Part shown: one piece after another, positions 3,140-56,894 of the stretch
Layout of the letters: each line of letters begins with the position of its first letter
Numbering within the stretch: position 1 is the first letter of the stretch
DNA from: Gordius sp. MW1
Taxonomy: Eukaryota; Nematomorpha; Gordioida; Gordea; Gordiidae
Assembly (NCBI GenBank): GCA_964036665.1
Contig: OZ038532.1
Location: 22,533,037 to 22,597,036, forward strand
Reading direction: 5' to 3'
Length of the DNA stretch: 64,000 bases
The notes under the pieces: generated by a model
Told to the model about the DNA's origin: nothing
The model's database searches: none
Seen by the model: only the letters and a program-made list of their open reading frames with translations
Made by a program: the position numbers and the translations under genes

Positions 3140-4500
3140 TCCTACCATTACCATCAGCATAACGAGCACATGCTGCTCCCGGTTACTAGCACGGCAGATT
3201 AAAGTTGCCAAGGTTGCTGGTTGAGAGAGATATAACTAACCGGGCATTTAGCAGATTTGATTGATATAAACCGTGGTATCAAGCAGGGTTGTTTGAAACT
3301 AAACATGGTTTTTAGCAAATTTAATTATAGCGTACTAGTATAGTTGGCAGCCGGCATATAATGCTAATTAATATTTTTTCAATCATATATTAATCCAAAA
3401 ATGGTGATAAAAGGATCTAAAATATATTATAAAGAACTTTGCCCCCCTCCCATTTTTGTCCCCTTGGTCTGCCCCCCACCTTATTTTTTACCCTCTTTCT
3501 CACCAGGGGCAAGGGAGGGGGGGGGGGGTTATTTGCCTCCCCCCCTCTTTCTTACCGGAAGGGGGGGGGGGGGGGGGTTAGGGGGAAAATATTTGCCCCC
3601 CCCCCCTTCCCTCTTTCTCACCAGGGGGGGGGGGGGGGTGATTTGCCCCCCCCCCCTCTTTTTCCCCTCTTTCTCCATCCCTAATCAAATAACATATAAG
3701 GAATATAAATTTTTTATTGAGAACAGGAATGAAAAAATAGAATTTTTTGGTATTTTTAAATGTATTTCTATTTAAAACATAATTTACGCAACATTTTTCA
3801 AAATTATTTGATAAAAGAATTAGGCCCAACTGTGTTTAAAAAAACAAGATTTTTTCATCTTAAATCAATTGATTAGGCTTTTAATCAGCCCCCTAGTTAT
3901 ATTTTTTCTATTGTTTTTAGAAACTCATTCCCCCTTCCCCTCCTTTATCTCTTACACTTCATGAGTCTAGTTATATTTTTCCCTATTGTTTCTAAAAGCT
4001 CCTTCCCCTCCCCTACTTCATCTCATACGTGGGGGTGAAAAAGGGGGGTGGCAAATCCCCCCCTACCCCGCCCCCCCCCCGTGAGAGGGTAAAAAGGGGG
4101 GGGGGGCAAATCACCCTCTTCCCCCCTCGCCTCTGGTGAGGGTAAAAAATAAGGGGGGGGGGCAGACCAACGGGACAAAAAAAGGGAGGGGGGGGCAAGA
4201 TTCTTAATTTATTATATATTTTTAATTTTTTTATCACCACTTTTGGATAAAAATAATTGAAAAAATATTGATTAGCATTATGCCAGCTGCCAACTAACGC
4301 TATAATTAAATTTGCTTAAATCCTTGTTTAGTTTCAAACAACCCTGCTTGATACCACGGTTTATAACAATCCACTCTGCTAAATGCCCGGTTAGTTATAT
4401 CTCTCTCAACCAGCAGCCATGGCAACTTTAATCTGCTGTGCTAGTAACCGGGTTATTAAGCATATGCTGATGGTAATGGGGGAGATGTATGCTACTACAG
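3140..4500. repeat. Long foldback (inverted-repeat) element
   Basis: The left arm (about 3140-3530) reappears reverse-complemented as the right arm (about 4115-4495). Both contain the strings TTGAGAGAGATATAACTAAC, ACCGTGGTATCAAGCAGGG and TTTAATTATAGCG in the same order when read outward. The inner parts of the arms carry long G and C runs. The centre (about 3540-4110) holds more homopolymer tracts and a short tandem duplication starting CTAGTTATATTTTT at about 3894 and 3967. No transposase ORF is present. The organisation is that of a foldback-type or long-TIR non-autonomous DNA transposon. The short ORFs in this interval are poly-Pro/Gly readings of the homopolymers and are not genes. Confidence 0.8.
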
Positions 4501-10707: not shown

Positions 10708-13221
10708 TCTATATATATAAAGTAAAATGTATGTGTGTATGTATGTGTGTAATGTGGATAAGGGCTAAACTCTGAAACTACAGGCCCCATTCACGCGAAA
10801 ATTTAGCCATAGATGCCCAGGGCAGCCAGGGGTAAAATAGTTTTTAGAATAAATTGCTTTTAGTTTTAAAAATATCGGACATTACGTTTTAAAAAAGGGT
10901 TAAAGTCTGAAACTACCGGCCCGATTCGCGCGAAATTTTAGCCATAGATGCCCAGGGCGGCCAGGGGTAAAATAGCTTTTTCAGAATCCTAAAATTCCTT
11001 TTAGTTTTATAATATCGGACATTTCCCAGCCAGTTTCATTTATAGCATCATATACAATACGCCCTTCGGGCGTAACTGGGGGCTTCACCCCCAGATCCCC
11101 TTGGGGGTTTCGCCCCCAAACCCTCTCCTGGGGGCTCCTCCCCCAGTCCCCCGCTGGAGGCTCCGCCCCCAGACCCCCGTTTAGCCAAGGACAGTCCCTG
11201 TTTCACATACCTTTGCTTAAAATCCTCATACACATCTATTACTCTTTTATACTACGTGTAAACAAAGCATATTTGCTATGCAATTTATGTTGGAGAGCTA
11301 TTGCCCGTTACTACTCCGCATCTAAAAATGTCACAAGTATCGTAAGTAGATCTCAAAAAACTTAGAGATGCTAAATTGTTCCATTGGTCAGTACCAAGAG
11401 ACAGTCTATTAATACATAAGAGTCTAAAAAACGCATAGGCCTTTGTAGGGGGTGGGGGGGGGGCACAGAGTAATTATCAATGTCAGCAAAAAAAAACTTT
11501 GAGAATATAAAAAAGGCTTGCGACGAAACGAGCAGCGATATGCAATAGCTCCGCTATTGCCCGTTACGACCGCGCATCACAAAATGTCACAATGAGCAGC
11601 GACATCGCAAAAAATTTACAGAGGCTAAATTGTTCCATTGGTCAGTACCAATAGACAGTCTACTAATACATAAGAGTCAAAAAAACGCATAAACCTTTGT
11701 AGGGGGGGGGGTACAGAGTAATTATCAATGTTAGTCAAAAAAGCGGGAAAAAAAATTCGATTCACAATTTAGCCAATGGTAATTTTTTTCATTGGTCAGC
11801 AGTCAGGACACGGTAAAAGTGGATATAAATACATAAGAGTCAAAAAAAACGAAAAAAAAATTTTCGATTCACATTTTGGCCAATAATCATTTTTTTCATT
11901 GGTCAGTACCAAGAGATGGTTTTAAATACATAAGAGATAAGAGTCAAAAAAACGAACAAAAAAATTTTAATTTACAATTCGGCCAAAGGTCATTTTTTCC
12001 ATTAGTCAGCAGCCAGGACACGGTAAAAGTGGATATAAATACATAAAAGTCAGAAAAAACGAAATATAAAATTTTGATTCACAATTTGGCCAATGGTCAT
12101 TTTTTTCCATTGGTCAGCAGCCAGCGGAAAGCCAAAGAGTCATATTAGCAATGGTAGTAACAAGAACAATCACAAGAATCAAAAAAAACGAAAAAAATAA
12201 TATCGATTCACATTTTGACCAATGGTCATTTTATTCCATTGGTCAGCAGCCAACGCACGGCAAAAGTCATATTAGCAATGGTAGTAACAAGAACAATACA
12301 TTAATTTAAAAAAAAAATAAAAAAAAATTTGGCCTCTCCGGGATTCGAACCCACAACAGGAGAGGCATAGGCTTTTGTAGGGGGGGGGGCACAGGGATCC
12401 ATATCACTAGAGGCATAGGCTTTTTTAAGGGGGGCACAGGTTATTATTATTTTCAACCAAAAAAAAAATAAAAAAAAATTTTGATTCACAATTTGGCCAA
12501 TGGTCATTTTTTCCGATGGTCAGCAGCCAGCGGACGACCAAAAAGTCATATTATCAATGGTAGTAACAAGAACAATCATAAGAGTCAAAAAAAAACGAAA
12601 AATATAATTTCGATTCACATTTTGACAATTGGCACTTTATTCCATTGGTCAGCAGCCAACGGACGGCTAAAAAGTCAAATTATCAATGGTAGTAACAAGA
12701 ACAATATATTAATAAAAAACAAAATAAAAAAAATTTGGCCTCTCCGGGATTCGAACCCATAAACTAGTTAAATTAATAAAAATTAAAAATAAACAACGTG
12801 ACAAGACATTAGGTGCAAGACAAGACATTCGGTGCAAGACAAGACATTCCGAGCGTGACATAAACAAATCGAAAGTGAGCCCATAAATTGCATAGCAATT
12901 AATAATGACGTCATACATACAAGGCTGAATTAGATATCTAAAAGTATAATAAAAATTTTATGTATGTAAGGGCTAAATTCTGTACCGGCCCGATTCGCGC
13001 GAAAAATTAGCCATAGATGCCCAGGGCGGCCAGGGGTAAAATAGCTTTTTTAGAATCCTAAAATTCCTTTTAGTTTTAAAAATATCGGACATTTCCCGGC
13101 CAGTTTCATTTATAGCATCATATACAATAATGACGTCATACATGCAAGGCTGAAGTTTTCTCGAATTTTATTATATTAAAGAAAATTTATTTTTAGCAAC
13201 AACGTTTGCCGGGTGAGCTAG
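10708..13221 (+). mobile_element. Non-autonomous Helitron inserted in the MITE
   Basis: Starts TCTATATATATAAAG and ends GTTTGCCGGGTGAGCTAG. It sits exactly between A (10707) and T (13222), the canonical Helitron A|T target, and the MITE copy at about 55213 gives the empty site (GTCAATAAATTAAT). Inside are two copies of the family's head text (GGCCCGATTCGCGCGAAA ... CCCAGGGCGGCCAGGGG) at about 10750-11058 and 12955-13130, plus the composite repeat at 11059-12903. No Rep/helicase coding sequence, so it depended on a helper elsewhere. Confidence 0.85.
11059..12903 (+). mobile_element. Composite repeat family X, copy A
   Basis: Begins with a GC hairpin (ACGCCCTTCGGGCGT), followed by about 120 bp of stacked GC hairpins of the GGGGGCTCCGCCCCC kind. 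Next comes the inverted-repeat unit TTTGCTATGCAATTTATG (about 11270), then a tandem array whose units contain TTGGCCAATGGTCATTTTTT, GGTCAGCAGCC, AAAGTCATATTA and GTAGTAACAAGAACAAT. Two minus-strand tRNA-like B boxes (GGGTTCGAATCCCGGAGAGG) lie at about 12331-12350 and 12736-12756. It ends with CCCATAAATTGCATAGCAATT. The insertion point inside the Helitron is clear from the uninterrupted text at about 25886 (TATACAATAATGACG). I know no named family with this layout. Confidence 0.7.
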
Positions 13222-13524
13222 TAAATTAATATTATACAAAATAGCAATTAATATTGATGGCGCTATATTATTAAACAAACTTTAATGGCATTCTTTACAT
13301 TTTTAATATTTATGTATGGTGTAAATGATATTTATTTTAAAATGCTATTTTGACATCTACCCAATTCAATATTTTTTTTTAGTTACCTTTTTAATATTAT
13401 TTAATTTGCGAAAATTACGAATTTCTATATGATCACCACTTTACAATGTGCCTTTCAAAATGGTGGGAAAAAGAATACACATTTTGTGCGTTGATGAGCA
13501 GTCTATCTAGTCTATGTTTGTATT

Positions 13525-13985
13525 GTATGCTCTCAATTTCCTATAAAACTTTAAAGATTTTCATATTTGGAATTATTTTAAATATAATTTGTTTGGCACT
13601 TTTACATATTAATAAAAAAATTGTTCCTTGCCAAATTTAAACTATATTTAACATTTCTAATGTTATGGAATTAGATTAACCCCAATTAAGCAGGAGTCCT
13701 ACTTAGTCTATTTTCATTTTCAATATAAATTTTAATCCATTACTTCTACCTGAAATAACCAAGTAACGAATTTAAGATGAGAAACATGTTAAACATTGCA
13801 GCATTATTTGAATACTTTAGTATCTTTTCTTTGAATAACTTATTATTAAAAATATGAAAAATGCATCAAAGCGTTCAGCAAAATCAAAGTGTCTCAACGT
13901 CTCAACGCACCTAACCTAATCTACTAAACTATTTCGATTCATGAAACACAAATATATTGGCGCCTTATTTTTTCGAAAGGAAGAA
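13525..13985. other. Intergenic between two repeat nests
   Basis: AT-rich; no gene or repeat recognised. Confidence 0.35.
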
Positions 13986-13987
13986 TA

Positions 13988-15653
13988 TTAAACTCGGGCC
14001 TTCGGCCCTCGTGGGAAGGGGGAGAAGGGAAGGGGAAGGAGAAGGGGAAGGGGAGGGGAAGGGGAGGGGAAGGGGAGGAAGGGAAGGGGGACGACTCATC
14101 TATACTCCGTATAAACGTAGCATATTTGCTATGCAATTTATGGGCGAGAAAGGAGGGAAGGGGCGAGAATGCCTATAGGGGGTATTAAATGCAAAATTAT
14201 TAGTTAATTAATAATATACAAATATTTAAAAAGTTAAATGGTATTAACAAGAACAATATATTAATTTAAAAAAATAAAAAAATTTGCCCTCGCCGGGATT
14301 TGAACCCACATCAGTAGAGGCATAGGCTTTTGTAGGGGCACAGGGACCCATATCAGTAGAGGCATAGGCCCTTGTAGAAAAGGGCATAGGGTAATTAACA
14401 ATGTTTACCTAATAAAAGACGAAAAAGTAAAATTTCGATTTATTTGGCCAATGGTCATTTTTTTCATTGGTCAGTAGCCAGCGGACGGTCAAAAATTCAT
14501 ATTATCAATGGTATTAACAAGAACAAAATATTAATTTAATTTCAAAAAAAAATAAAAAAAAAATTGTCCTCTCCTGGGATTGAACTTGAACGTCCTGTTT
14601 ACAAACCGTTCGCTCTAACCACTCAAACCATGTTGGTATCAAAATCTTATAGTATTTATGTTATTTATATAGATAATGAAATAAAAAAGTTGTGTTTTAT
14701 GTTTATTATATAATAAAATGAAACAATAATAGAAAATCAATATATTATAGATAATTTAACAAATATAAATTATTATGAAAAATTAGAGGGGGGGGCTACT
14801 TCAGCAATAGGCGTTTTTTGATCATCAAATTAATAACTAATTCAAGAATTTGTTTCAGTATTTTATAAAGATTTTGGGAGGAGCATTTTGAAATTTTACC
14901 CTTTACTTAAAAACAATTTGGCCAATGGTCATTTTTTTTATTGGTCAGTACCAAGAGACGGTCTATAAATACATACGAGCCAAAAAAAACGAAAAAAAAT
15001 TCACAATTTGGCCAATGGTGATTTTTTTCATTGGTCAGTAGCCAGCGGACGGCCAAAAAGCCATATTATCAATGGTATTAACAAAAACAATATATTAATT
15101 TGAAAAAAAAACGAAACAAAAAATTTCGATTTATTTGGCCAATGGTGATTTTTTTCATTGGTCACTAGCCAGCGGACGGTTGAAAAGTCATATTATCAAG
15201 GGTATTAACAAGTACAAATATTAATTTAATTTAAAAAAAAAAATTTGCCCTCTCCGGGATTCGAACCCACATCAGTAGAGGCATAGGCTTTTGTAGGGGC
15301 ACAGGGACCCATATCAGTAGAGGCGTAGACCCTTGTAGGAAAGGGCATAGGGTAATTATCAATGTTAACCTAATATATACCCAATTCAAAAACGAAAAAA
15401 TAAAATTAAGATTTATTTGGCCAATGGTCATTTTTTCATTGGTCAGTCAGCGGACGGTCAAAAATTCATATTATCAATGGTATTAACAAGAACAAAATAT
15501 AAATTTAATTTAAAAAAAAATAAAAAAAATTCGTCTTCTTTTGGGATTGAACACGAGCCTCCAGGTCATAAAGCTGTCGCCAATAACTTGGTAGACATCA
15601 ACGGACGGACAACGGACAACCAAAAACGAGCCCATAAATTGCATAGCAATTAA
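13988..15653 (+). mobile_element. Composite repeat family X, copy B
   Basis: Same order as copy A. A GC hairpin head (CTCGGGCCTTCGGCCCTCG) is followed by a purine-rich GGGAAGGGGAAGG tract and GCATATTTGCTATGCAATTT (about 14110-14135). The tandem array follows, with units starting TTTGGCCAATGGTCATTTTT. tRNA-like B boxes lie at about 14286-14306 and 15246-15266, and two longer tRNA-like segments at 14564-14636 and about 15528-15597. It ends CCCATAAATTGCATAGCAATT. The ORFs in the purine tract and the array are simple-sequence readings. Confidence 0.68.
14564..14636 (-). pseudogene. tRNA-Thr(UGU)-like pseudogene
   Basis: On the minus strand the order of a tRNA can be read: an A-box-like region (TGGTTTGAGTGGTTAGAGC), an anticodon loop TTTGTAAA with TGT in anticodon position, and a B-box-like GTTCAATCC. 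The acceptor stem does not pair (the 3' side is GGAGAGGACA while the 5' side is ACCAACA-like), so a functional tRNA is unlikely. It lies inside composite repeat copy B and is probably tRNA-derived repeat material. Confidence 0.5.
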
Positions 15654-16090
15654 AATCTGTATATTATTTTCACTACCCCCACTACCTGAATTGCTTAGCA
15701 AATAGCTTTTGCTTCTCTACGTTGTATAGGGATCATGATAATTAAAAATTTCAAAAGCGTGTTAATTACTTATGACATTTTAAAGAGTTTTGTGTAAAAT
15801 ATACTTTTTAGACATAGATACACATATCCATTAATTTAGAATTTGAAGACAAATGTACAAATAGATTCTTCCTAAACCAACTAGACTATACATTTTTTTT
15901 AAAATTATAATTTTATGGATATATACAGCATTTAACAGTATTTTATTGTAATATACATACATAAACGGCAAAGCATATTTAATAAACACCATAAAACGAA
16001 GAATAATAGTCTAGGAGACGAATAAAGTTAGAATTTACATTTACAGTGGGGTACAATAATTTAAAGCGAAAGCATTGAAATATAGATTAT
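15654..16090. other. Downstream region of RTF1
   Basis: AT-rich DNA between composite repeat B and the RTF1 stop codon; it should hold the RTF1 3' UTR. No ORF or repeat recognised. Confidence 0.35.
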
Positions 16091-19000
16091 TCACATAAGA
16101 CCGCGACGTTTTTTGTAATCTTCAAGGTTGAGGGATTTTTTACAAAGTTGTTGGGCGTTGGAAGTGGTATTGGATGTAGGAGGTGGCGCCATTTTAATTC
16201 CCATCCCCTTGCCATTGTAAAAGGAAGAGGAGGCAATGGAAGAAACACCGCTACACAAGGAACCAACTGTGAACGAAAAAGTATCATTTTATAAATAATA
16301 TTTATTTATGGCATAATGCTTAATCAATAACAGTATGTACGTATTGCCCCGATGACATTTCGGCTAAATTAAGCTAAGATTGAGTCCCATCTGACACCTT
16401 GCATCTCGTAAAACTAAGAATAAAGCCCATTAACAATAATGGAATTTGGGCCCGGGCGAGGTCGAAAAAATTAAAGCCAACCAGCGGTCATTAGCTAGTC
16501 TATTTGCGAAAAATAAAAGTTTTTACAGAAGCATAAGTGTCCACAGCCATTAAAACCCGTATAAGTTACCACAGCAAAAAAATTACAAGTTGGACAGGAC
16601 CAAAAAGGAGCCATTAATTGCATAGCAATAATTAAATTAATCTCAAATCTAAATTTTTCGACAAAAGCAAGATTTTAAAATATAATCAATTGGAAGTGAA
16701 GAAGATGTACGAGGGAGGGAAGGAATGTCCAAATCTAATTTGATGTCGAAATTGTGGACTTCGAATAGATCCTGTGTTGTGACAGTTCCAGTTTGTTTGC
16801 CCCCTTTCGAGGGCTGAGTCGTGGGTAATGCTTTCATCGGTGTCGCCAATTTATGGCCTAAACCATCGTTCGGCTTAACAACGCCCAAAAATAATTAGAA
16901 TTATTTAGGTAAGTGTACAAAATATCAAAAAAACAATTAATGTAGATAAATGATCAATCGATCTCACTTTCACCAAGGGCAACCGTTGTGCTAAAGGAGT
17001 CGCCGTGTTGACCGAAGGAAGAGTCTCTCTAAAAGAATAAAAATTTACCACACATTTAAAGATAACTGAAAAATATCAAAAACACAGCTCAAAATCTTAT
17101 AAAATTCCCTAATTTTAAATGTATAAGCCGTCACTGAAAGGAGAAAAGGTAAAAATCACGAGTTAGAGGAGTTTAAGTTAACCTGTTAAGGGAAGGAGTC
17201 ATGGGGGAAGCATTAAATTTGGCGTGGATGTCGATTGTGGTTTCAGTTGTGGTTTGGGATGAGTAAATTTGGTAAGCGGGATTGGGAGTATCGAGATGAC
17301 TGCTCTCATCCCGTTTCTTGTGCACCAAGGCTGTCGGTTGACATTTGCGACGGGTGAAAGGATCATTTTCTTCCGTCAAGCACAAATTCCTTTCCTTCGT
17401 TTCTTCCTGAAACCATACATGTGAGGAATATAAAGATATAATTCCGAGCTAAGTAGAGGGTTGATCACAATATTGTCAGACTCAGACGAGGTCATGTTGC
17501 CCGATTTAATGATATGATACTTTGACTAAAGGTTAACTTACCTAAGTCGCTTATATCAAAAAAGGAATTAGGCTACCAGGCAACACTGTTTAATTATAAG
17601 GGCGGTAGAGGGTATAAATGCGTGCTATGGCAGAATTAATAAGTCGTGACAGAGAATTCATATTAATGAAAGAACCAACATACCATGATAGCCTTTTCGG
17701 CTTGAATGATATTCTGCTTGCGATTGCGTTGGTTGATGTAACTAAAACGCGTTGTTACAACATACAATAATATATCAAAAATGAATTATGTAATGTACAT
17801 ATAAAATGAGTGAAATAATTATTGTGTGGGGTTGCATTTTTACTTTACAGCGTTGAGACTACTACTCCTCAGTCGATCTAATTCCGTAGCTCGTATTTCT
17901 AATTCCTCCAACTGTTTCTTAATCTCGATTACTTTGTCTTCGTCCCCCAACATCTCCGCTTCTTCCTAACAACAACCAATAATCACTCAATAACGTAAAT
18001 ATGCAAAATATTTGCAGACTTTTCGTAATTATTTTTCTGGGCTTTATTCTAATGTGTTCATCACAAATGAAAGGTATATATTAACCTTAGCCTTCAGCAA
18101 GAGCGTTTTCCTCATGGCATAGTTGTGGGGATTCTTCTTGAACCGCGACTTTTCGCTTATAATCTAAATCACAAAAATTATCACTTTTACAAAATGTAAA
18201 TTTGCAAAACAAGCACACGTAAATCGTGAAACAATTAAAATCATTCCATTCCAATATATACATATGGCTATAATCATATACATACCCGGTCCACGTCTTC
18301 GTCCTTGAAGCTGTAATTCAGAGCGGCTCCAATCTTTTTTTCCCTCACAGCCACTTGGTCTAGGGTGGGGAGGGTGATATTTCCTTGTCTCATTGTCTCT
18401 TTCCACTTCAGAAATTCGGAGTCGGTAAAATCACTGTTGGAAACGAATTCCAACCTAAATACTTTACTCTCCGCCCCGTGCCTACACAACACAAATAAGA
18501 AGAGTTAATTCCTTTATGAAACAACTCTTTAAACTATTCACCAATTTAATAAAGATTTTACGTTCATTTAATGATAAACGGGAGGTGTAAAGTTTAGAAA
18601 TTTACCTATAGGAGGTTCATTATTAACATTATGCTGATTGATATTTAGGGAACTTGATGTCCTAACCTAACTTTAAGGCCTTTGTTGGTTCGGGTAGTGC
18701 CGAGTTGGTAGACTTTACCAGTTTCTACGACGCCCACAATTTCAACCACCTGCAAATATTAGCAAAGGTTTATAAAATTTTTGAAAGAAAGCTCTAAATA
18801 AACTGACACATTCGGTATTGCAAATTCAGAATAAAGAGGTGCTATTAGTATACCCTATAAACGGGTCGACCTTCGTTTTGTCCTATGCCCACGCGTAGAA
18901 AGCAGCCTTGCACCGTCTCTTCGAAGAAGGGCATGTGAACCCATCTGAGCAAAAAGGAAAAGAGGAAAATACACGTGTATGAGGAGGGCAGGATGAAGGG

Positions 19001-23686: not shown

Positions 23687-25570
23687 TTTGTTTGTTTGTT
23701 TGTTTGTTTGTTTGTTTGTTTGTTTGTTTGTTTGTATGTATGTATGTATGTATGTATGTATGTATGTATGTATGTATGTATGTATGTATGTATGTATGTA
23801 TGTATGTATGTATGTATGTATGTATGTATGTATGTATGTATGTATGTATGTATGTATGTATGTATGTATGTATGTATGTATGTATGTATGTATGTATGTA
23901 TGTATGTATGTATGTATGTATGTATGTATGTATGTATGTATGTATGTATGTATGTATGTATGTATGTATGTATGTATGTATGTATGTATGTATGTATGTA
24001 TGTATGTATGTATGTATGTATGTATGTATGTATGTATGTATGTATGTATGTATGTATGTATGTATGTATGTATGTATGTATGTATGTATGTATGTATGTA
24101 TGTATGTATGTATGTATGTATGTATGTATGTATGTATGTATGTATGTATGTATGTATGTATGTATGTATGTATGTATGTATGTATGTATGTATGTATGTA
24201 TGTATGTATGTATGTATGTATGTATGTATGTATGTATGTATGTATGTATGTATGTATGTATGTATGTATGTATGTATGTATGTATGTATGTATGTATGTA
24301 TGTATGTATGTATGTATGTATGTATGTATGTATGTATGTATGTATGTATGTATGTATGTATGTATGTATGTATGTATGTATGTATGTATGTATGTATGTA
24401 TGTATGTATGTATGTATGTATGTATGTATGTATGTATGTATGTATGTATGTATGTATGTATGTATGTATGTATGTATGTATGTATGTATGTATGTATGTA
24501 TGTATGTATGTATGTATGTATGTATGTATGTATGTATGTATGTATGTATGTATGTATGTATGTATGTATGTATGTATGTATGTATGTATGTATGTATGTA
24601 TGTATGTATGTATGTATGTATGTATGTATGTATGTATGTATGTATGTATGTATGTATGTATGTATGTATGTATGTATGTATGTATGTATGTATGTATGTA
24701 TGTATGTATGTATGTATGTATGTATGTATGTATGTATGTATGTATGTATGTATGTATGTATGTATGTATGTATGTATGTATGTATGTATGTATGTATGTA
24801 TGTATGTATGTATGTATGTATGTATGTATGTATGTATGTATGTATGTATGTATGTATGTATGTATGTATGTATGTATGTATGTATGTATGTATGTATGTA
24901 TGTATGTATGTATGTATGTATGTATGTATGTATGTATGTATGTATGTATGTATGTATGTATGTATGTATGTATGTATGTATGTATGTATGTATGTATGTA
25001 TGTATGTATGTATGTATGTATGTATGTATGTATGTATGTATGTATGTATGTATGTATGTATGTATGTATGTATGTATGTATGTATGTATGTATGTATGTA
25101 TGTATGTATGTATGTATGTATGTATGTATGTATGTATGTATGTATGTATGTATGTATGTATGTATGTATGTATGTATGTATGTATGTATGTATGTATGTA
25201 TGTATGTATGTATGTATGTATGTATGTATGTATGTATGTATGTATGTATGTATGTATGTATGTATGTATGTATGTATGTATGTATGTATGTATGTATGTA
25301 TGTATGTATGTATGTATGTATGTATGTATGTATGTATGTATGTATGTATGTATGTATGTATGTATGTATGTATGTATGTATGTATGTATGTATGTATGTA
25401 TGTATGTATGTATGTATGTATGTATGTATGTATGTATGTATGTATGTATGTATGTATGTATGTATGTATGTATGTATGTATGTATGTATGTATGTATGTA
25501 TGTATGTATGTATGTATGTATGTATGTATGTATGTATGTATGTATGTATGTATGTATGTATGTATGTATG

Positions 25571-25600
<30 letters not shown>
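23687..25600. repeat. Microsatellite (TTTG)12 (TATG)466
   Basis: (TTTG)n runs from 23687 to 23734, then an uninterrupted (TATG)n from 23735 to 25598, which is 466 perfect units, plus a final TA. I see no single interruption. The repeat has no stop in any frame (Tyr-Val-Cys-Met on plus, His-Thr-Tyr-Ile on minus), so the 636-652-codon ORFs here are artefacts. It abuts Helitron head text at 25601. Confidence 0.98.
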
Positions 25601-25601
<1 letters not shown>

Positions 25602-26181
25602 TGTAAGAGCTAAATTCTGAAACTAACGGCCCGATTCGCGCGAAACTTTACCCGTAGGTACCCAGGGCGGCCAGGGGTAAAATAGCTTTTGCAGAATCCT
25701 AAAACTCCTTTTAGTTTTAAAAAAAGGGCTAAATTCTGAAACTACCGGCCCTATTCGCGCGAAAATTTAGGAGTAGATGCCCAGGGCGGTCAGGGGTAAA
25801 ATAGCTTTTTCAGATTCCTAAAATACCCTTTCGTTTTAAAAATATCGGACATTTCCCGGCCAGTTGTTTCATTTATAGCATCATATACAATAATGACGTC
25901 ATATATACAAGGCTGAAGTTTTCTCGAATTAGATATTTAAAAGTATAATAAAAATGTTACAGTATACTGTCAAAATTATTGGGGTTTAACAAACTATTTA
26001 AAATAAAATTTAAATTATGCAATTTTTGCCATTATTATCACATGGTTGATGATAGAAGCATATTTTTAATAATTATCCATCCTTCAATTAATTGTTTAAT
26101 TATTCATAACCAACCCATACACTTATAGTATTAGCTAGAAATAATGTATATAACAAAACAATGTTTGCCGGGTCAGCTAGT
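25601..26181 (+). mobile_element. Helitron copy following the microsatellite
   Basis: Two tandem copies of the head text (GGCCCGATTCGCGCGAAA, CCCAGGGCGGCCAGGGG) at about 25625-25690 and 25740-25800, then CATTTCCCGGCCAG, the uninterrupted TATACAATAATGACGTCAT and the 3' end GTTTGCCGGGTCAGCTAG at 26164-26181. The microsatellite lies where related copies have a short GTATGTATG run (about 10735 and 12961), so it is an expansion within this element. The normal TCTATATATA start is not present left of the microsatellite. Confidence 0.7.
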
Positions 26182-32720: not shown

Positions 32721-34383
32721 GGCTAAATCCCGAAAAGACACAATCCCGAAGCTACGATAATGCTACTGCTACGATTTTCAAATTTCCATATGTTTTTTAA
32801 TTTTAAAGTTTTATCATATTTCCGTGTTTCAATCAATTTAAGAGCTAGAATTGGGTGCAACCTTTACAACTTTCTTATGTAAGAATCACATTTAATTTGT
32901 TAAATTTATAATTAAATATTTTTACCCACCAGGATTATAAAGATCAAAATAAGAGTTTCACATTATAAAAATATTTTCACTTTTTTGACACTTTTCATAC
33001 TTGTTTTTATCCTATATATAATTTTTATTACTTTCTATTAATTCAAGAAGCCAGATTTGGGTGCAATGTTTAATATCTACTTGTACATGAAAATTTATTA
33101 AATCTGGAACAAATTTATATATATTGTTAGCTTTATACAATAAGACATTTAATATTATTGTTTTAATATTTTATAAGACTTTGTATGCACTATGATTGAT
33201 TGAAAATCTTTTAAAGATTGGTTTGTAGTGTTGCGTCAATTACTATTTTGCTAGCGGCATGTTACTTATGTCTTGAAATTTAATTGACTCATTTACATTA
33301 CCTTACTACTTCGCGACGTTAATTGACCAATCACATATACCTCGCATTTAACACTAAATGTAATTGATTTATTCAATTAATTCGAGAAATATATAAAGGA
33401 GTTTAAAACACTCTTTACCAATCACTTCTTTACTCTTCGAACTCTTTTCTTTTCACTCACTTTATTTATATACCTTTAATAAAGAGTGCCGCCTCCCAAT
33501 AGGTTATACTTTTAAAAAGTTAATTTAGATTCTGTTGTCTAACATTAAGGGTTTTAAAAATTTTATTATTAATTTAGGTAATCAAAATTCATTTAATTAG
33601 TTTGAGGAGTTTATATTTTATATTATTAATGCTAAGCAATTTAATACTCTAAAAAATTATAAATTAATGTACTTATCATACTAATGTGTGTTCATAAAAA
33701 CTCAATATAATTTTCTTTTCAATCTACAAGAAATTAAATTTGATACCTTATTTTATATGTTCTTATTATTACAAAGAGATTTAGTAAGCAATATATAATT
33801 AAATTGTTAATGATAATGTTTTTTATTTTTTTATAAATTAAAATGTAGGAGTGAAAAATATTCCCTTTCACTTGTTTTTTTAATGTTCATGGATGTGTTT
33901 AGCAAATCTATTTTAATGAATATTATCTTTCATTACTGATGATTTAAGTTAAAATCACTTATTAAAATATTAGTATACAAATTATTTGCCTTTTATAATT
34001 GAAATCAGTAAGAAACTTAAGAGTTATCTAAAAATCTCCTGCACTTTTACAGTCCCACTCAAATTAAAGCTGTTACATTTAAAAAGGAAATAGCTTGAGT
34101 AAGTTGTTACTTAATACGTATTTATAAAACAAGAAATAAATTTTATTTATATAGAAATCAAATCATACATTTATAAATACATGTATATGGATATTTGCAA
34201 TTACAAATATGGGATGTGGGGTGACTAAAAGGTGAGGCTGGAGTTGGGAGAGGCTTAGGATTTTTGGGAGGAACATGTTTCCTATTTCCATCTGAGTTTA
34301 GGTAAGTGAACTGTTGGCAAATGCATTGATACGGTTATAGTGTAGCATTAAAATTCGGGACTATGCGCTTTCGGGATTTAGCC
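32721..34383. mobile_element. 1.66-kb TIR element with TA target
   Basis: Left end GGCTAAATCCCGAAAAGACA and right end reverse complement GGCTAAATCCCGAAAGCGCA form imperfect inverted repeats extending about 31 bp. TA flanks both sides (32719-32720 and 34384-34385). No ORF, so non-autonomous. A TA duplication fits Tc1/mariner-type elements, although TA is too short to be proof. The core holds a promoter-like segment (separate entry). Confidence 0.75.
33290..33525 (+). promoter_or_regulatory. Promoter-like segment (CCAAT, TATA, AATAAA)
   Basis: Within the TIR element: GACCAATCACATA (about 33326), AATATATAAAGGAG (about 33388), a pyrimidine-rich stretch CACTTCTTTACTCTTCG, then AATAAAGAG (about 33478) within about 160 bp. 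This order is what an LTR (U3-R-U5) or a short polymerase II unit shows. No second LTR is present nearby, so a solo LTR nested in the TIR element is one reading; chance in AT-rich DNA is another. Confidence 0.35.
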
Positions 34384-35729: not shown

Positions 35730-38690
35730 TTTTTTTTTTTATTGGTTAAAAAGTTTATTTTCACGAAACAAAGTTACATAAATAAGCGAAGTATATTAAA
35801 GAAAGACATATTGGTTAAATACAAAGATCTATATCATTATCTTCTAAAACGGGCCATGAGTCGGCGAAGGATTTAAAGTTGTATCGTACAACAAGAATCC
35901 CTAGTTGTTGCCTGAGTAAAAAGGATGCAGAAATTTTAGATTTTGGTGAGCGTTTTCCGACTTCTTTAAAAAACCCCATTGCCTGTTTACCGAAGGAACC
36001 GGAGCACGAGGCAACGACAGGGATAAAAATATTGGATGCCAAAAGGGCAGAGTACTTGGTAGTTTTACGCCCTTCTGCTGTAGCGATAGGGTCGTAATTA
36101 AAATGGGAAGGGGCAAATAGGTCAATACAAGTAAAATCCCATTTGAGGGATAGGCCATTTTGCCAGGGGACTAGAGAAGAGCCGTCAGGGCGCATCCTAC
36201 CCTCGAGAGAGGGATCTGACGGCTCAAGAATTGAGAGGATTTTTTGAGGGCAGCTTGAATTAATAAATTCGCTTTAGTGTGCCTAACATATTTATATTTG
36301 TTTGCTAGGCAGTGTAGAGGGTGCCTAGCATATTCGTCTACAGTGGAAAGACAGTTTCGACAATTGAATTCTCTGCTATAGCTGATCCCCAACCTTAAAG
36401 CTATGGAATATGATAGCTCAAAGTCTTCAAGCAGCATTCCCATAAGTTTGCTGGGATAGGCTTCAAGCCACTCGTGACCGGAACCATCAAAAGCGAGGGA
36501 CCTAAGGTTGTAACTGGCTATCGTCGCTGCTCGATAAAAGGTTATCAACGGAGCGCGATACGAGTCCAGAATCCCAATCCTTTTGTCTCGTACTTTGAGG
36601 TTGAACGGTCTCGGGTGTGACATTCAAATTCCAAAGCTCTAAGGCTTCAGTTAGCAGAGGGTCGGAATCATGTTTTGTGAGATTAAAAATTAAGTTTTGG
36701 ACCGACTTAAAAGAGGAAATAAAAGCAACTAGCGATATGCTGCCGGGAGGACGAATTCCTAATCCTCCAGATTTGGTTGGAAGGGATGCCTGAACCCAAT
36801 TATTAGTGTTAAATTTTAAATTTTTTCTAATAAAGTTTTTAAAAAGCCTTCGTACGACTTTAAAACTTCTGGGTGTAAAAATGCACCAGATGAGCGAAAA
36901 CAATGATTAATCTTTGAAATGTTAAAATAATTTTTGATTATGTAAAAAGAATGATGTGCAGGCAAGCATTTTAAAAGTTCCATTTTAGATTTTAAAATTT
37001 CGAGGTTTTTATGAAGAAAATTTAAAAGAGATTTTTCACCGCCAATAGGTGATCCCAAAAGGGATATGTTTTCTCTATCTAAAACAAAAAAAGTTTCAAA
37101 AAAGGGAAAGTCTATAGTGTTAGGGGCCTGATAGATTTCACATTTTTTCGTGTTTAATTTAAGATTTAGAGTGGGTTCAAAATTGTTGATAATTTCTATA
37201 GCTTTACTAATCGCTTCCGGGCGGCCACATAGGGTGGCGTCATCGAGGTACCAAACATTTAAATCGAGGGTACACTGAGATGATATTGCCTTGACTAAAT
37301 TATGAATGGCCAAACAAAACAAGGGAGGGCCTAATGGATCTCCTTGTTGGATGCCTTCGGACGAATCAATGACGTATTCGCCGAATCGAAGCTTGGTTGT
37401 AGAACCATAGCTTAATAAAATGTAATTTAAAAATTGTGGGAATTCAGCTAAAAAAGTGTTAATAAGGGTTTCTCTTCGAATACTGTGAAAAGCATTGGCG
37501 AAATCTAATTTGACAAAGCAGGACTCGGTAGAAATATTTTGAAGTGTGATCCGGCCAGCCTGGCTGGCTGCCTCACAGCCGCCTTTAATTCCGAAGCCGA
37601 GTTGATGAGGGCAGAGCTTAGCGGACAAGGAGGGTTTTATGAGTTTGCAGAGTATCTTAGATATAATACGGCGAAAAAGGCTTCCAATAGCAATGGGTCT
37701 AACTGAGTTATCCGGTTTTTTGATGGCGATTAGTTTTGCACCGAATAAAATAGGGATGATTTCATGAGGAAATTTTCTATTAACGATGATATTACAAAAA
37801 AAAGTAATAGAATTTAAAAGAGGTTCAGTATTTAAATTATTTAAATTGAGTAAATCTTGTAGATATACTGGGCGCCATCCGTCAAGTCCAGCTGCGGAGT
37901 CCAAAGGAAAGTAGTTAAGGGCTTCACGGATGTCTGAAGACTCAAGCACTATTGATGATGGAGATGTGGGGTATTTACTGGCTGAGGATGCTGGTGGGTG
38001 TTTTTGATTAAGCTCTCTATAAGAGTCAGGGCAACAAGGGGCTATTGAGTTGTTATCATAAAAAGCTCTAAGGGCACTTTTTGGGTTAAAATTATGGATT
38101 TTATTTGAGATGTGCTTGGCAGTTTGGTTAATTGAGAATTCCAGTGGAAAGGGTTTTGTTTTGCTTGTGCATGTAATGGGAACATCAGTATTAAAACACA
38201 GAAGGGATTCCTTGATGAGACTTGATAAATTATGTTCATTAGGTTCCCTAACATAAAGGATATGATATGGAAATTTAAAAAGTTTGTCCCAATTAGTTAA
38301 ATTATAAGGGTTTTTGATAATAGAAGTGAATAAATTTAGCAGAGATTGTTGAATGGAAGGTCTGGCTCTTCTTGTGATTCTAGAGATAGTATTAGGAAAT
38401 GAATTTGTTAAAAAAGAATTGCTCCAAGATAAGTCAGGCGGTTGTTTAATTAGTGGGGAGCATTGTAAGGGTGGGGGGATGACAGGGCTAGGGATTGGCA
38501 ATAGGGGAGCCTCCTCAAAGTTAGAAGCCAGGGGTGGAATTGGTAAGCAAGTTGGAGGTAATTTGCCAGAAGAAGGGCACCTTGAAGACACAGGGCCATG
38601 AATCCAAAAAAAATTGTGTTTATCAAGGCATATTCGTCGCTTACAAGTTGAGCATAGGGGTTTAGAGATTAACATGTGGGATAAAAACTT
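35730..38690 (-). pseudogene. Nearly full-length LINE with RT and restriction-like endonuclease region
   Basis: The largest frame (38675-36816, 619 codons) has an N-terminal Cys-rich start (CSTCKRRICL), then reverse transcriptase blocks: AGLDGWRP (about 268), KLDFANAFHSI (about 390, motif A), GIQQGDPLGPPLF (about 440, motif B) and WYLDDATL (about 480, motif C, both Asp present). The reading then shifts frame about three times (36903-36502, 36623-36171, 36195-35815). These give a zinc knuckle CRNC...HPLHC and a C-terminal WDFTCIDLFAPSH...KTTKY...GSFGKQAMGFF region like the PD-(D/E)XK-type nuclease tail of site-selective LINEs. A plus-strand T run at about 35729-35744 is its poly-A end. RT looks recently active, but the frameshifts disable it unless they are consensus errors. 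Clade not assigned. Confidence 0.85.
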
Positions 38691-38699
38691 GATTTATAA

Positions 38700-46728: not shown

Positions 46729-49103
46729 AATTGCTATGCAATTTATGGGATCACTTTCCATTTTGTTTGTCCGCCTATTCGGCGTGCGCTATTCGGCGTC
46801 CGCTATTCGGCGTGCGCACCGAATGTCACGCACCGAATGTCTTGTTTTGTTTACTTTTAATTTTTGTTAATTTAACCAGTTTTTGGGTTCGAATCCCGGG
46901 TTTTTTTTTGACTATTATGATTGTTCCTGTTACTACCAATGTTATTATGACTTTTTGGCCGTCCGTTGGGTGCTGACCGATGGAAAAAAATGACCATTGG
47001 CCAAAATGTGAATCCAAGTTTATTTTTTCGTTTTTTTTCGACTATTATGATTGTTCCTGTTACTACCAATGCTATTATGACTTTTTGGCCGTCCGTTGAT
47101 TGCTGACCGAAGGAAAACGTTTTTTTTCGACTATTATGATTGTTGACTTTTTGGCCGTCCGTTGGGTGCTGACCGATGGAAAAAAATGACCATTGGCTAA
47201 AATGTCAATCAAAATTATTTTTTTCCTTTTTTTTCGATTATTATGATTGTTCCTGTTACTACCGTTATTATGACTTTTTGGCCGTCTGTTGGGTGCTGAC
47301 GGATGGGAAAAAATGACCATTGGCCAAAATGTGGATCGGAATTATTTTTTTTCGTTTTTTTTTGATTATTATGATTGTTCCTGTTACTACCAATGTTATT
47401 ATGACTTTTTGGCCGTCCGTTGGGTGCTGACCGATGGAAAAAAATGACCATTGGCCAAAATGTGAATCCAAGTTTATTTTTTTTCTTTTTTTCGCTAACA
47501 CTGATTTATAGACCATCTGTTGGTACTGACCAATTAAAAAAATGACCATTGGCCAAAATGTGATTCAAAAATTTTTTTTCGTTTTTTTTACTCTTATGAA
47601 TTTATATCCACTTTTACCGTGTCCTGGCTGCTGACCAATGAAAAAAATGACCATTGGCCAAAATGTGATTCGAAAATTATTTTTTCGTTTTTTTGACTAT
47701 GAATTTATAACCACCTCTACTTTGTCCTGGCTGCTGACCAATGAAAAAAATGCTTTATACCATTTTTGAATATCTATACTATTTTATTTTTAGATATCTT
47801 ATTAATAAATCTAATTATTATTACATCTTATTTTTAAAAGTCATATTTTTTAATATCTAACGCATTTTTATATATTTAAATTTTATTTTCAAAAAATTTT
47901 ATTATAAGCCACAATAGGAATTACCCCAATTTAATAACATTTTACATTAACCAAAAGTAAGTTATTAAATTTTATCATTTTTAGATGTGCGGTCGTAACA
48001 GGCAATCCAATTCTCTATTATTATTAAGTGTTGATTAATTAATTTTATAATTTCTAATTTCCGCCTGTTATTACTTTAATTGAAACTATTTTCTAACACT
48101 TAAAATTAACCTAATATTGTGAAATAATCTTCATCTCCTCCACTCCCGCCCCCTAGCGGTGGGCGGATAAGAGAGGAAGATAGGGGTAGGGGTTTAACCT
48201 TGGCATAGCGCCATTGAAAAAAAAATCAATATAAAATGACGAAGGAATAATTTCCCCCTTTCCCCTTTTAATTGCTATATAATAATAATTCCAATATATT
48301 GATTATCTAGTTGTAATTTTCAATTATGACAACTGCAATTTCAAACCTAAATATGAGATAATCGTTAAATATCATTGATTAAGCCGTTAATAAGTGTAGG
48401 GACACAGGGACCCATATCAGTAAAGGCATAGGGTTCTGTAGGGGGTGGGGCACAGGGTAATTATCAATGTTAACAAATTCAAAAACGAAAATTAAAATTT
48501 AGATTCACAATTTAGTCAATGGTCATTTTTTTCATATTTTGAATTAATAATAGAATTTTTAAAGTATATTTGATTATTTTAATGTTCACATTTCATTTTA
48601 CAAAACAATCCCTTGTTACATGGCCAGCTTCTGCCAAATTAAAAAAATACTATCTTTTTCTTCTTCAAATTTTTATCACATGCAAAACATACGTTATAAA
48701 ACGGCGAGTAAAATTGAGGTTTTAAATTTAAATGAATTTTATTGTTTTTTTACAAAAAAGTAGATTTTTATGTTGTGTAACTAGCATGGGAGTAGTCAAG
48801 GGGGAAACCCTAGCAATTATCCTACCCCCTATAGGCATTCTCGCCCCTTCACACCTTTCTCGCCCATAAATTGCATAGCAAATATGCTACATTTATACGT
48901 AGAATAGATGAGTCGTCCCCTCTTCCCTTCCCCCCCCCTTCCCTTCTCCCCCTTCTCCGGGGGTCTGGGGGCGGAGCCCCAGGAGATGGGGGTTTGGGGG
49001 CGTAGCCCCAACGGGGGTTTGGGGGCAGAGCCCCCAACGGGGGACTGGGGGCGGAGCCGCCAGCAGGAAGTTTGGGGGGAAGTTACGCCCGAAGGGCGTA
49101 TTT
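46729..49103 (-). mobile_element. Composite repeat family X, copy C
   Basis: Read on the minus strand it starts at 49103 with TACGCCCTTCGGGCGTAAC and stacked GC hairpins (about 48950-49090). TTTGCTATGCAATTT-type text follows (here GCATATTTGCTATGCAATTT, about 48867-48890), then a long tandem array (about 46900-47760) whose units contain GTCAGCACCCAACGGACGG and ATGGTCATTTTTTTCC. A B box lies at about 46884-46899 (GGGTTCGAATCCCGG on plus), and it ends CCCATAAATTGCATAGCAATT at 46729. A patch at about 48395-48530 is in the opposite orientation to the rest, so the copy is rearranged or hosts a second insertion. The plus and minus ORFs at 46670-47549 are readings of the array. Confidence 0.66.
46900..47760 (-). 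repeat. Tandem array, about 130-bp units
   Basis: The landmark TGACTTTTTGGCCGTCCGTT or its variants recurs at about 46950, 47080, 47149, 47273 and 47404, and the more diverged GTCCTGGCTGCTGACCAATG at about 47623 and 47725. Units are therefore mostly 120-135 bp, with one shorter deletion unit, and about eight in all. It is the inverted counterpart of the arrays in copies A and B. Confidence 0.8.
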
Positions 49104-54592: not shown

Positions 54593-56894
54593 ATGAAAAA
54601 GAATAATCGCAAAAATGGCAAATTAAACTTAGAATCTCCTGGAAAAACCGACAATCAAAGAAAGGTTTTGCCAAATCAATTAAATCCTCAGAAATCTAAA
54701 ACTAAAATAGTGGATATTCCAGGGTTAGAATATGAGGGTATACTTAATTTTAATATAGTTGATGATTATTTAGAATCATCTCCCGTTTTTAAGGAAGCCA
54801 CCGATCCTACATTCTTAACAAACGATGATGAAATACAACAAATGGAAAATGATTTACTTATGCTTGTCAAGGAATTTAGTTCAGGAAAGCATAATGCATT
54901 TGGTAAACTTATAAATTTGTATCTATTGTATGATAATGTTATTCATATTGTATGTTATTTCAATCTAATATTAAATTATACCATGTGCACACTTTTAAAT
55001 TTTGTTATCTTATGAATTATTTGGCAGAATAGAATGGATAGAGAATATATAATCATAGACTAGATAGACTGCTCCCATATGTTGCATGTGGTTAATTGTG
55101 TGTCAAATTTTCCTCCATTTTGAAGAAAGCAACTGGTGTTTTTTAACCTTGTTATTTTGCCCTATAACAGTCAATTTACCTTCCTCACTAGTTTATAAAT
55201 TAAAACGAATGTCAATAAATTAATATTATACAAAATAGCAATTAATATTGATGGCGCTATATTATTAAACAAACTTTAATCGCATTTTTTATATTTTTAA
55301 TTTTTATGTATATTTTAAATGATATTTATTTTAAAATGCTGTTTTTGATATCTACCAAATTCAATATTTTTTTAATTACCTTTATTTAATTTGCCAAAAT
55401 TACGAATTTTTATATGATCACCACTTCACAATGTGCCTTTCATAATGGTGGAAAAAAAGGGTACACATTTTGTGTGTTGATGAGCAGTCTATCTACCTAA
55501 ATCATTTGTCTATTAATTTTTGCCTTAACTGGGTTTAAAATTTATGATTAATTGATAACAAAAATAAGTAACATGTACAATCTATATTAAATGATTGTTT
55601 AATTATATAAAATTTGTATAACTGTTTAAAATAAACTAAGGTTGTATATAAACAATATTTTATTACAGATATTATATAAGGATTACCAAAATTATTTTAA
55701 AATATGGCATGTGGTATTCAATACATTTCTTTTCTAAATTTGTTTGTTATATGTGAATTGCTTTTGAGTACCACAATGTTACAATCATACTTTATGTTTC
55801 GACGACAATTGTTTGTATTAATTACATTCATAATTATCTATTTTCTTATTCATATCTTTTGTACTAAATTGACACAAAACGTTTGATGTTTTAGTTTTCC
55901 TATTTAATATGTTGAACTTAAACCCTGATTAATAAAACCATTTCACACAATTACCATTTTTAAGAAGGCGCAGAGGCAAATTGAGCAGGGAAAATAATAC
56001 ATCCTTCCTGAGTATTTCTAATTGCTCCCCTATAGATATAAATGAGAAAACCAAATGATTAATATCCCCCTCCCCCTTCTTACTTATTATAAAAAATTGG
56101 GCAAAAAGATTTAGACCTGATTTTTTTAATATAGGCAAAGAAATGTTAAAAATATTGCATTATTATTGTTTAAATATTATATATTATAGAAATGCTTAGT
56201 CCCATTCCAAAGATATCTTTTCTAGTTGGCCATATTGTGTTGTACATATTTTTAAACATTGATTTTATCAATACCCATCTTTAAGGTTTACATTTAGATC
56301 TTTTATAACTAAGCTGAGCTTATTAAAACGATTTTTAGCATTTTTTTGAAAAAATCTAATAAATTCCTGCAGAAAATAATATTTTTATTTGAATCCAAGT
56401 ACCTAATGAGCAGTTTTGCCAAGCTTAAAGCTAAACCTAGGGGCGGATTGACATATATTTATCCTTTTCAAAAAGGTGACGTATATTTGAATTTACAATT
56501 AGATCAAACCCTATTCGAGAAGATGGATAGGATAAGGGATCAGCAAGAAGGTTTGGCTAAATTACATTTTGAACTCAACGTAAAGCGCGAAAGTAAAGAC
56601 CCAGCCGTTTCGAATGATATGGAAGCATCTCGTTCAACGGCCCAAGAAAGTATGTCTAAACTTATGGTCAGCCTCAACGATCTCAGTAATTCGTTGCATC
56701 GACTATACGAAGTTAAGGAAGAAGACCCTCTACCAGGCACTTCGGAGGGTGGGAGTGTTGGAGTAGAGACGAAGATCCAACGCCAACCACCGAGCTCACT
56801 AAATCGGGGCAAAGTAAGCAAAAGATCGTTGAACCATCAACAACAATCTACCCATTCAGATGCAGACATTCAAGGCGAAACGTTGACTCCGTAA
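54593..56894 (+). CDS. CCDC28-family coiled-coil protein, two exons
   Basis: Exon 1 is 54593-54902, exon 2 is 56503-56894; the 1600-bp GT-AG intron is phase 1 and the product is 233 residues. The CCDC28 core is split by the intron: ENDLLMLVKEFSSGKHNAF (about 85-103) ends exon 1, and DQTLFEKMDRIRDQQEGLAK then LHFELNV opens exon 2, followed by the helix SKLMVSLNDLSNSLHRLYEV (about 145-165). This parallels the vertebrate arrangement (LLNDF.SGK..AFG, then RDMQEKLARLHF, then LDQLL.NLEELSNSI). The C-terminal 65 residues are Ser/Gln-rich and probably disordered. Family knowledge: CCDC28B modifies Bardet-Biedl syndrome proteins and mTORC2/SIN1 and affects cilia; whether this copy does is inference. 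The intron hosts a MITE. Confidence 0.88.
55054..55500. mobile_element. hAT-like MITE, uninterrupted copy 2 (in CCDC28 intron)
   Basis: Starts CATAGACTAGATAGACTGCT and ends GATGAGCAGTCTATCT (the last bases have decayed). Its body GTCAATAAATTAATATTATA (about 55211) is the empty-site version of the Helitron-split copy at 10543-13516. No coding capacity. Confidence 0.88.

Follow-up and report, generated by a model that had tools for sequence, protein, structure and literature searches.

To what kind of mobile element do three composite copies in the genome of Gordius sp. MW1 belong, each uniting a hairpin, a pair of inverted repeats, a tandem array and tRNA-like B boxes? We analysed the whole stretch of 64,000 nucleotides that carries them (hereafter, the window), which lies on contig C6 of a genome of 211.8 Mb in 12 contigs. 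An earlier note on this DNA had stated that no transposon class with this layout was known to its author, a statement that does not stand, since published HINE/DINE-1 elements have the same layout. The repeat family very probably consists of Helentron-type elements (HINE, DINE-1 type), i.e., of rolling-circle transposons that are non-autonomous and present in high copy number. We assign it in this way because its palindromic subterminal inverted repeats (subTIRs), its 3′ palindrome, its central array and its T-rich sites match those of published HINEs. On this analysis, the family would be HINE-like, i.e., a new family within a known class and not a new class, and its helper is putative. The coordinates of the features are collected in Table 1.

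All the parts that had been described are present in the three copies of the window, and the same order of parts is found in loci elsewhere in the genome (L006 and L008). These two belong to a set, L001 to L008, that comprises the first eight places of the family motif on contig C1 and is not a random sample; L002 overlaps L001, and L001 and L005 hold 5′ parts only. When both ends lie in the examined DNA (window copies 1–3, L006 and L008), the order 5′ end, array (with B box), 3′ subTIR and palindrome is respected in five copies out of five. The 17-base motif TTGCTATGCAATTTATG occupies six exact places in the window, i.e., two per copy, in inverted orientation in 3/3 copies, and the inverted pair does enclose the array, as had been proposed. 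With up to three mismatches, eight places are found in the window versus 0.82 expected, and none of 100 shuffles reaches eight. Genome-wide, we counted 14,008 exact places (7008 + 7000) in the 211.8 Mb, while the reversed-letter control of the motif gives 0 places. Since extra copies of the motif are present in some arrays (L001, L003 and L005), half of this number, i.e., ~7000 elements, can serve only as an upper guide.

Table 1. Features of the repeat family in the window (positions count from the first letter of the window).
Feature	Position	Strand	Basis and remarks
HINE-like copy 1	11059..12900	-	part order and empty sister site; 5′ end 12900, 3′ end 11059; exact ends ambiguous by up to 4 nt
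5′ subTIR AATTGCTATGCAATTTATG, copy 1	12882..12900	-	motif search
B-box-like motif, 5′ side of array, copy 1	12747..12757	-	motif search
B-box-like motif, copy 1	12341..12351	-	motif search
Central repeat region, copy 1	11355..12735	-	Tandem Repeats Finder and monomer spacing
3′ subTIR, copy 1	11273..11289	-	motif search
26-bp GC-rich hairpin repeats preceding 3′ palindrome, copy 1	11076..11179	-	Tandem Repeats Finder, 4.0 copies
3′ terminal palindrome ACGCCC-GAA-GGGCGT, copy 1	11059..11073	-	7 bp stem, -7 kcal/mol as DNA
Uninterrupted sister repeat, empty site for copy 1	13020..13154	.	junction AATA at 13126-13129
HINE-like copy 2	13993..15651	-	part order
5′ subTIR, copy 2	15633..15651	-	motif search
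B-box-like motif, copy 2	15257..15267	-	motif search
tRNA-Thr-like block, copy 2	14571..14631	-	local score 51 vs maximum 27 in 300 shuffles
B-box-like motif, one mismatch, copy 2	14296..14306	-	motif search
3′ subTIR, copy 2	14126..14142	-	motif search
Pyrimidine/purine-rich microsatellite adjoining 3′ palindrome, copy 2	14013..14089	-	Tandem Repeats Finder
3′ terminal palindrome GGGCC-GAA-GGCCC, copy 2	13996..14008	-	palindrome search and DNA folding
Decayed 5′ end fragment, same family	about 16592-16629	-	87% over 39 aligned positions; motif with 1 mismatch
HINE-like copy 3	46729..49099	+	part order
5′ subTIR, copy 3	46729..46747	+	motif search
B-box-like motif, copy 3	46886..46896	+	motif search
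Central array, copy 3	46900..47752	+	Tandem Repeats Finder and monomer spacing
3′ subTIR, copy 3	48865..48881	+	motif search
26-bp GC-rich hairpin repeats preceding 3′ palindrome, copy 3	48958..49078	+	Tandem Repeats Finder, 4.6 copies
3′ terminal palindrome, copy 3	49085..49099	+	palindrome search and DNA folding

Outside the copies (56.5 kb, plus positions 13101-13900), no B box, array monomer or palindrome was detected by the patterns used. The strays of the family are a decayed 5′ end (Table 1), a motif with three mismatches just outside copy 2 (15685-15701) and, at 33815-33842, 28 nt that match a stretch of copy 2. Chance clustering of the parts was rejected on the grounds of the shuffle controls (0/100) and of the small number of strays outside the copies. 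The window also contains a reverse transcriptase open frame (RVT_1, 36816-38693, minus strand), an open frame with a CCDC28 domain (56313-56894, plus strand), and stretches of G and C runs at 3508-3662 and 4043-4164, the first of which draws many weak Rfam matches below gathering scores.

The surroundings of the motif in the window copies and in L001–L008 give two main contexts, plus a third, rarer one. In the first, AATTGCTATGCAATTTATG comes after unrelated outer DNA, the last bases of which are mostly TATT or TTTT, and the outer flanks differ between copies; this context is the true end of the element, 5′ in Helentron terms. In the second, the motif is followed outward by a conserved sequence, by C/T-rich or GC-hairpin repeats, by a palindrome (GGGCCGAAGGCCC or ACGCCCGAAGGGCGT) and by T-rich host DNA. 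The third lies within arrays (L001, L003, L004 and L005), where extra segments resembling the 5′ subTIR are present, several of them with a B box behind; they may reflect tandem or nested elements. The palindrome ends 92-216 bp beyond the 3′ subTIR in 8/8 copies (window copies 1–3, L003, L004, L006, L007 and L008), a count that excludes the rows in which the 3′-subTIR pattern matched 5′ ends on the other strand, and in which L003 and L004 may not count as independent because two of their monomers are near-identical (0.976 and 0.990). The terminal hairpin of the earlier note is recovered, and in these eight copies the 3′ end does coincide with it. Its drawing as the head of the element has to be reversed, because the hairpin marks the 3′ end.

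These ends are able to fold. DNA folding of four 3′ end pieces gave z values of -3.6, -2.2, -3.2 and -5.1. The 5′ subTIR is itself palindromic (AATTGC-TAT-GCAATT, 6 bp stem, z of -2.0), and the 3′ subTIR piece (z of -1.6) pairs with neighbouring bases instead. In L006 (minus strand from 1501), GC hairpin repeats and then a second palindrome come after a first palindrome region that is altered, an arrangement which, at this one locus, suggests that the 3′ end was extended past an older terminator.

The dinucleotide TT is typical of both borders of the element. It directly precedes AATTGC in 9/10 5′ ends (at most one mismatch), the exception being L008; the ten ends include one array-internal motif of L001 and leave out the two-mismatch array-internal motifs of L003, L004 and L005, as well as the decayed end at 16592. 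In 8/8 3′ ends, TT also follows the palindrome core at a constant offset; these ends read ...GGGCGTA, ...CCCGAG or ...CCCTCG before it, and the frequency of TT in the window is 0.12 per position. Copy 1 moreover possesses an empty site, since it interrupts a repeat of which an uninterrupted sister lies ~225 bp away. The flanks of copy 1 and this sister are identical at 106/110 and 28/29 bases, and 4 nt are common to the two flank matches (AATA as read on the plus strand, TATT on the other). Target duplications had been called ambiguous, and they are: this overlap may correspond to no duplication with shared T-rich ends (element ends or variable Ts) or to a 4-nt target duplication. Published HINE work likewise leaves the ownership of the flanking Ts undecided (PMC4067079). 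The interrupted repeat is a member of a second dispersed family with units of 119-135 bp (..CCGGCCCGATTCGCGCGAAA..GCCCAGGGCGGCCAGGGGTAAAATAGC..), partly in tandem, present at 10760-11003, 12983-13081 and 25605-25842. A (TGTA)n microsatellite of 1.9 kb (23689-25605, 99% matches) has 119-bp units directly after it.

With a 4-nt overlap that is compatible with a 4-nt target duplication, and a perfect 17-bp inverted pair that encloses the array in 3/3 window copies, one could think of a MITE or a foldback element, moved by a cut-and-paste transposase via its paired inverted repeats. We regard this origin as extremely improbable: a MITE has terminal inverted repeats at both ends, and here the repeat is subterminal on one side only, where the interval ending in the palindrome extends beyond it in all eight copies. 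The rolling-circle assignment keeps our preference, and the question becomes which rolling-circle class is involved. Canonical Helitrons have a 3′ hairpin, 5′-TC...CTRR-3′ ends and an AT target. The family could be a canonical Helitron (Helitron1) of the non-autonomous sort, for which the many Helitron-type Rep genes of the genome would provide mobility, and its 3′ hairpin is indeed shared with that class; but its ends are not of the 5′-TC...CTRR-3′ form (at the 5′ end, TT is followed by AATTGC), and its site is TT, not AT.

The Rep genes themselves were searched with the Helitron_like_N profile, which returned 714 first-look candidates, of which 150 were scored as matches; 30 loci were read, and two of the 150 matches are located in open frames of 1046 and 1441 codons. 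QKRGLPHAH is carried by 30/30 of the Rep loci read (of 150 scored), and the RGLPHAH motif is described as the canonical Helitron signature (PMC4067079), so that all the Rep genes read are of the Helitron type, a point in favor of canonical mobilisation. Against it, paired subterminal inverted repeats are reported as a HINE trait (PMC4067079), and, considering also the ends and the site, a canonical Helitron appears quite unlikely. A Helentron-type helper would be a Rep with RGSPH and a C-terminal endonuclease that shares the ends of the family. None was found among the 30 Rep loci read, and the family subTIR (at most two mismatches) lies within about 1.5 kb on each side of the Rep in 0/30 loci. 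The coding relative with the same ends that the earlier note had proposed to look for did not come to light in these 30 loci and their flanks of about 1.5 kb.

If the family is of the Helentron kind, its transposition might proceed as follows. The 5′ end is set between TT and AATTGCTATGCAATTTATG, and the 3′ end consists of CATAAATTGCATAGCAAATAT..., then of a C/T-rich or GC-hairpin spacer and the terminal palindrome, followed by T-rich host DNA. A Rep/helicase, presumably provided in trans, would nick the 5′ end, and replication would then peel off one strand until the 3′ palindrome signals the end. The released single strand would be joined into a T-rich site, perhaps without target duplication. 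During this process, the central array and its tRNA-derived pieces would be passengers travelling with the element.

We then considered how the array itself is built. Window copies 1 and 3 and five loci together yielded 17 monomers of 98-131 bp, whereas the cutting rule gave none in copy 2. A tandem array of about 130-bp units had been announced: the array is real, but its units are not uniform, as 13 of the 17 monomer spacings measure 98-110 bp and only 4 measure 128-131 bp. Three types of monomers can be distinguished, of about 128 bp (4 monomers), about 107 bp (9) and about 100 bp (4). Monomers of the same type in different copies have an identity of 0.876 (45 pairs), versus 0.760 for different types within a copy (13 pairs) and 0.752 for different types between copies (75 pairs). 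Same-type monomers are therefore closer across copies than different types are within a copy, from which it follows that the array, in its order, predates the copies and has been propagated as a unit. Local duplication may have occurred later in some arrays, given three within-copy pairs of the same type with an identity of 0.918. When the window copies are compared with one another, matches of at least 60 nt show 75-88% identity in the arrays; around the 3′ subTIR, copies 2 and 3 share 91% identity over 133 nt.

The B boxes are the other component of the array region. The B-box motif GGTTCGAATCC (at most one mismatch) occurs at five places in the window versus 0.50 expected, and 0/100 shuffles reach five. 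Copy 1 contains two exact motifs, copy 2 one exact and one mismatched, and copy 3 one, which bears out the tRNA-like B boxes previously noticed in 3/3 copies. The B boxes are repeatedly met in one of two surroundings: TTTAACTAGTTTTTGGGTTCGAATCCCGG, close to the 5′ end, or CCTATGCCTCTACTGATGTGGGTTCGAATCCCGGAGAGGGCAAATTTT, within the array. With up to two mismatches, the motif is found in 5/7 other loci (L001, L003, L005, L006 and L008) and is absent from L004 and L007; a T-run follows within about 30 nt behind 17/18 of the listed B-box blocks. Six blocks were aligned with yardstick tRNA sequences (including Thr and Ser). In only one of them (14571-14631, tRNA-Thr-like) does the alignment with a tRNA cover most of the block. 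With tRNA-Thr, blocks c1_174 (32 vs 27) and c1_580 (32 vs 30) beat all shuffles and c2_424 equals the best one (34), while c3_187 scores below the best shuffle with Thr (29 vs 36) and above it with Ser (28 vs 26); c2_139 beats the best shuffle with none of the yardstick tRNAs. No tRNA was called by ARAGORN at default or by Rfam. Relaxed ARAGORN settings return hundreds of cloverleafs over the window, some of them in three of the six blocks, which we take as chance. An Rfam RUF6-5 match at 12306-12367 (matches up to E = 5) was set aside, its 23.0 bits standing against a gathering score of 70. Judging from their letters, the B boxes look tRNA-derived, and mostly reduced to the T-arm side.

Could the whole family be a tRNA-derived SINE, or another retroelement driven by pol III from promoters inside its units? 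The recurrence of the B boxes in window copies and other loci, the tRNA-Thr-like block and the T-runs point in this direction. However, the copies are bounded by the subTIR and the palindrome and not by a tRNA part; the B boxes lie inside the element in varying numbers, and the tRNA-like head with A and B boxes with which a tRNA-derived SINE starts is not seen; and neither ARAGORN at default nor Rfam identified a tRNA. This makes a SINE very improbable, and we retain the Helentron-kind assignment, within which the tRNA-derived pieces are the unusual part of the family. They might also have been kept for a function. According to this proposal, a rolling-circle element took tRNA-Thr-derived pol III promoter pieces into its array, its thousands of scattered copies produce small RNAs or bind TFIIIC, and the B boxes are maintained for expression, chromatin insulation or host tolerance instead of being carried along. 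We consider it decidedly unlikely, and favor the passenger status of the array within a rolling-circle element. The presence of such pieces nevertheless makes the recruitment of pol III factors by such arrays testable.

The family is notable for both its copy number and its tRNA-derived pieces, and we did not find it described in the literature searched by motif letters and by topic, a search that did not extend to Repbase or supplementary files. Judged by title, none of the listed papers holding strings of the family motif concerns transposons, and none of the papers on Helitrons with B-box, tRNA-derived, pol III or tandem-repeat content concerns HINEs. A near-match search of copy 1 in phage records and a search of IMG/VR contigs with one 24-base pattern of the family gave no match.

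Its relatives are found among published HINEs. Like the HINEs of the mite Metaseiulus occidentalis and of Culex, which are described with T-rich sites and no target modification, the family displays palindromic subTIRs, a palindrome near the 3′ end and T-rich/TT sites, with tandem repeats or microsatellites in some copies (PMC4067079). It differs from the mite HINEs by the distance from the 3′ subTIR to the end, i.e., 92-216 bp to the palindrome end here versus 38-60 bp to the 3′ terminus there, the latter being treated as a description of those families and not as a class rule. Unlike what the consulted part of the same source reports for mite and Culex HINEs, C/T-rich or GC-hairpin repeats fill the spacer, and tRNA-derived blocks are present in the array (PMC4067079). 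A second relative is Cg_HINE of Crassostrea gigas, in which satellite-like arrays lie between conserved modules, and with which the family shares subTIRs, a 3′ palindrome, a satellite-like central array, a microsatellite and T-rich insertion; compared by description only, the oyster microsatellite is situated in the left module, whereas the repeats are here in the right (3′) one (PMC7492417). In Drosophila DINE-TR1, as in the present family, tandem repeats, in that case of about 150 bp, occupy the centre between two conserved blocks; unlike in our family, tRNA-derived pieces are unmentioned in the consulted parts of these sources, again compared by description only (PMC9957191, PMC6947457 and PMC9659126). 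If our assignment is right, the Gordius family would represent another case of Helentrons spreading satellite-like arrays, in this instance with very many copies for a genome of 212 Mb, and with the array copied as an ordered unit.
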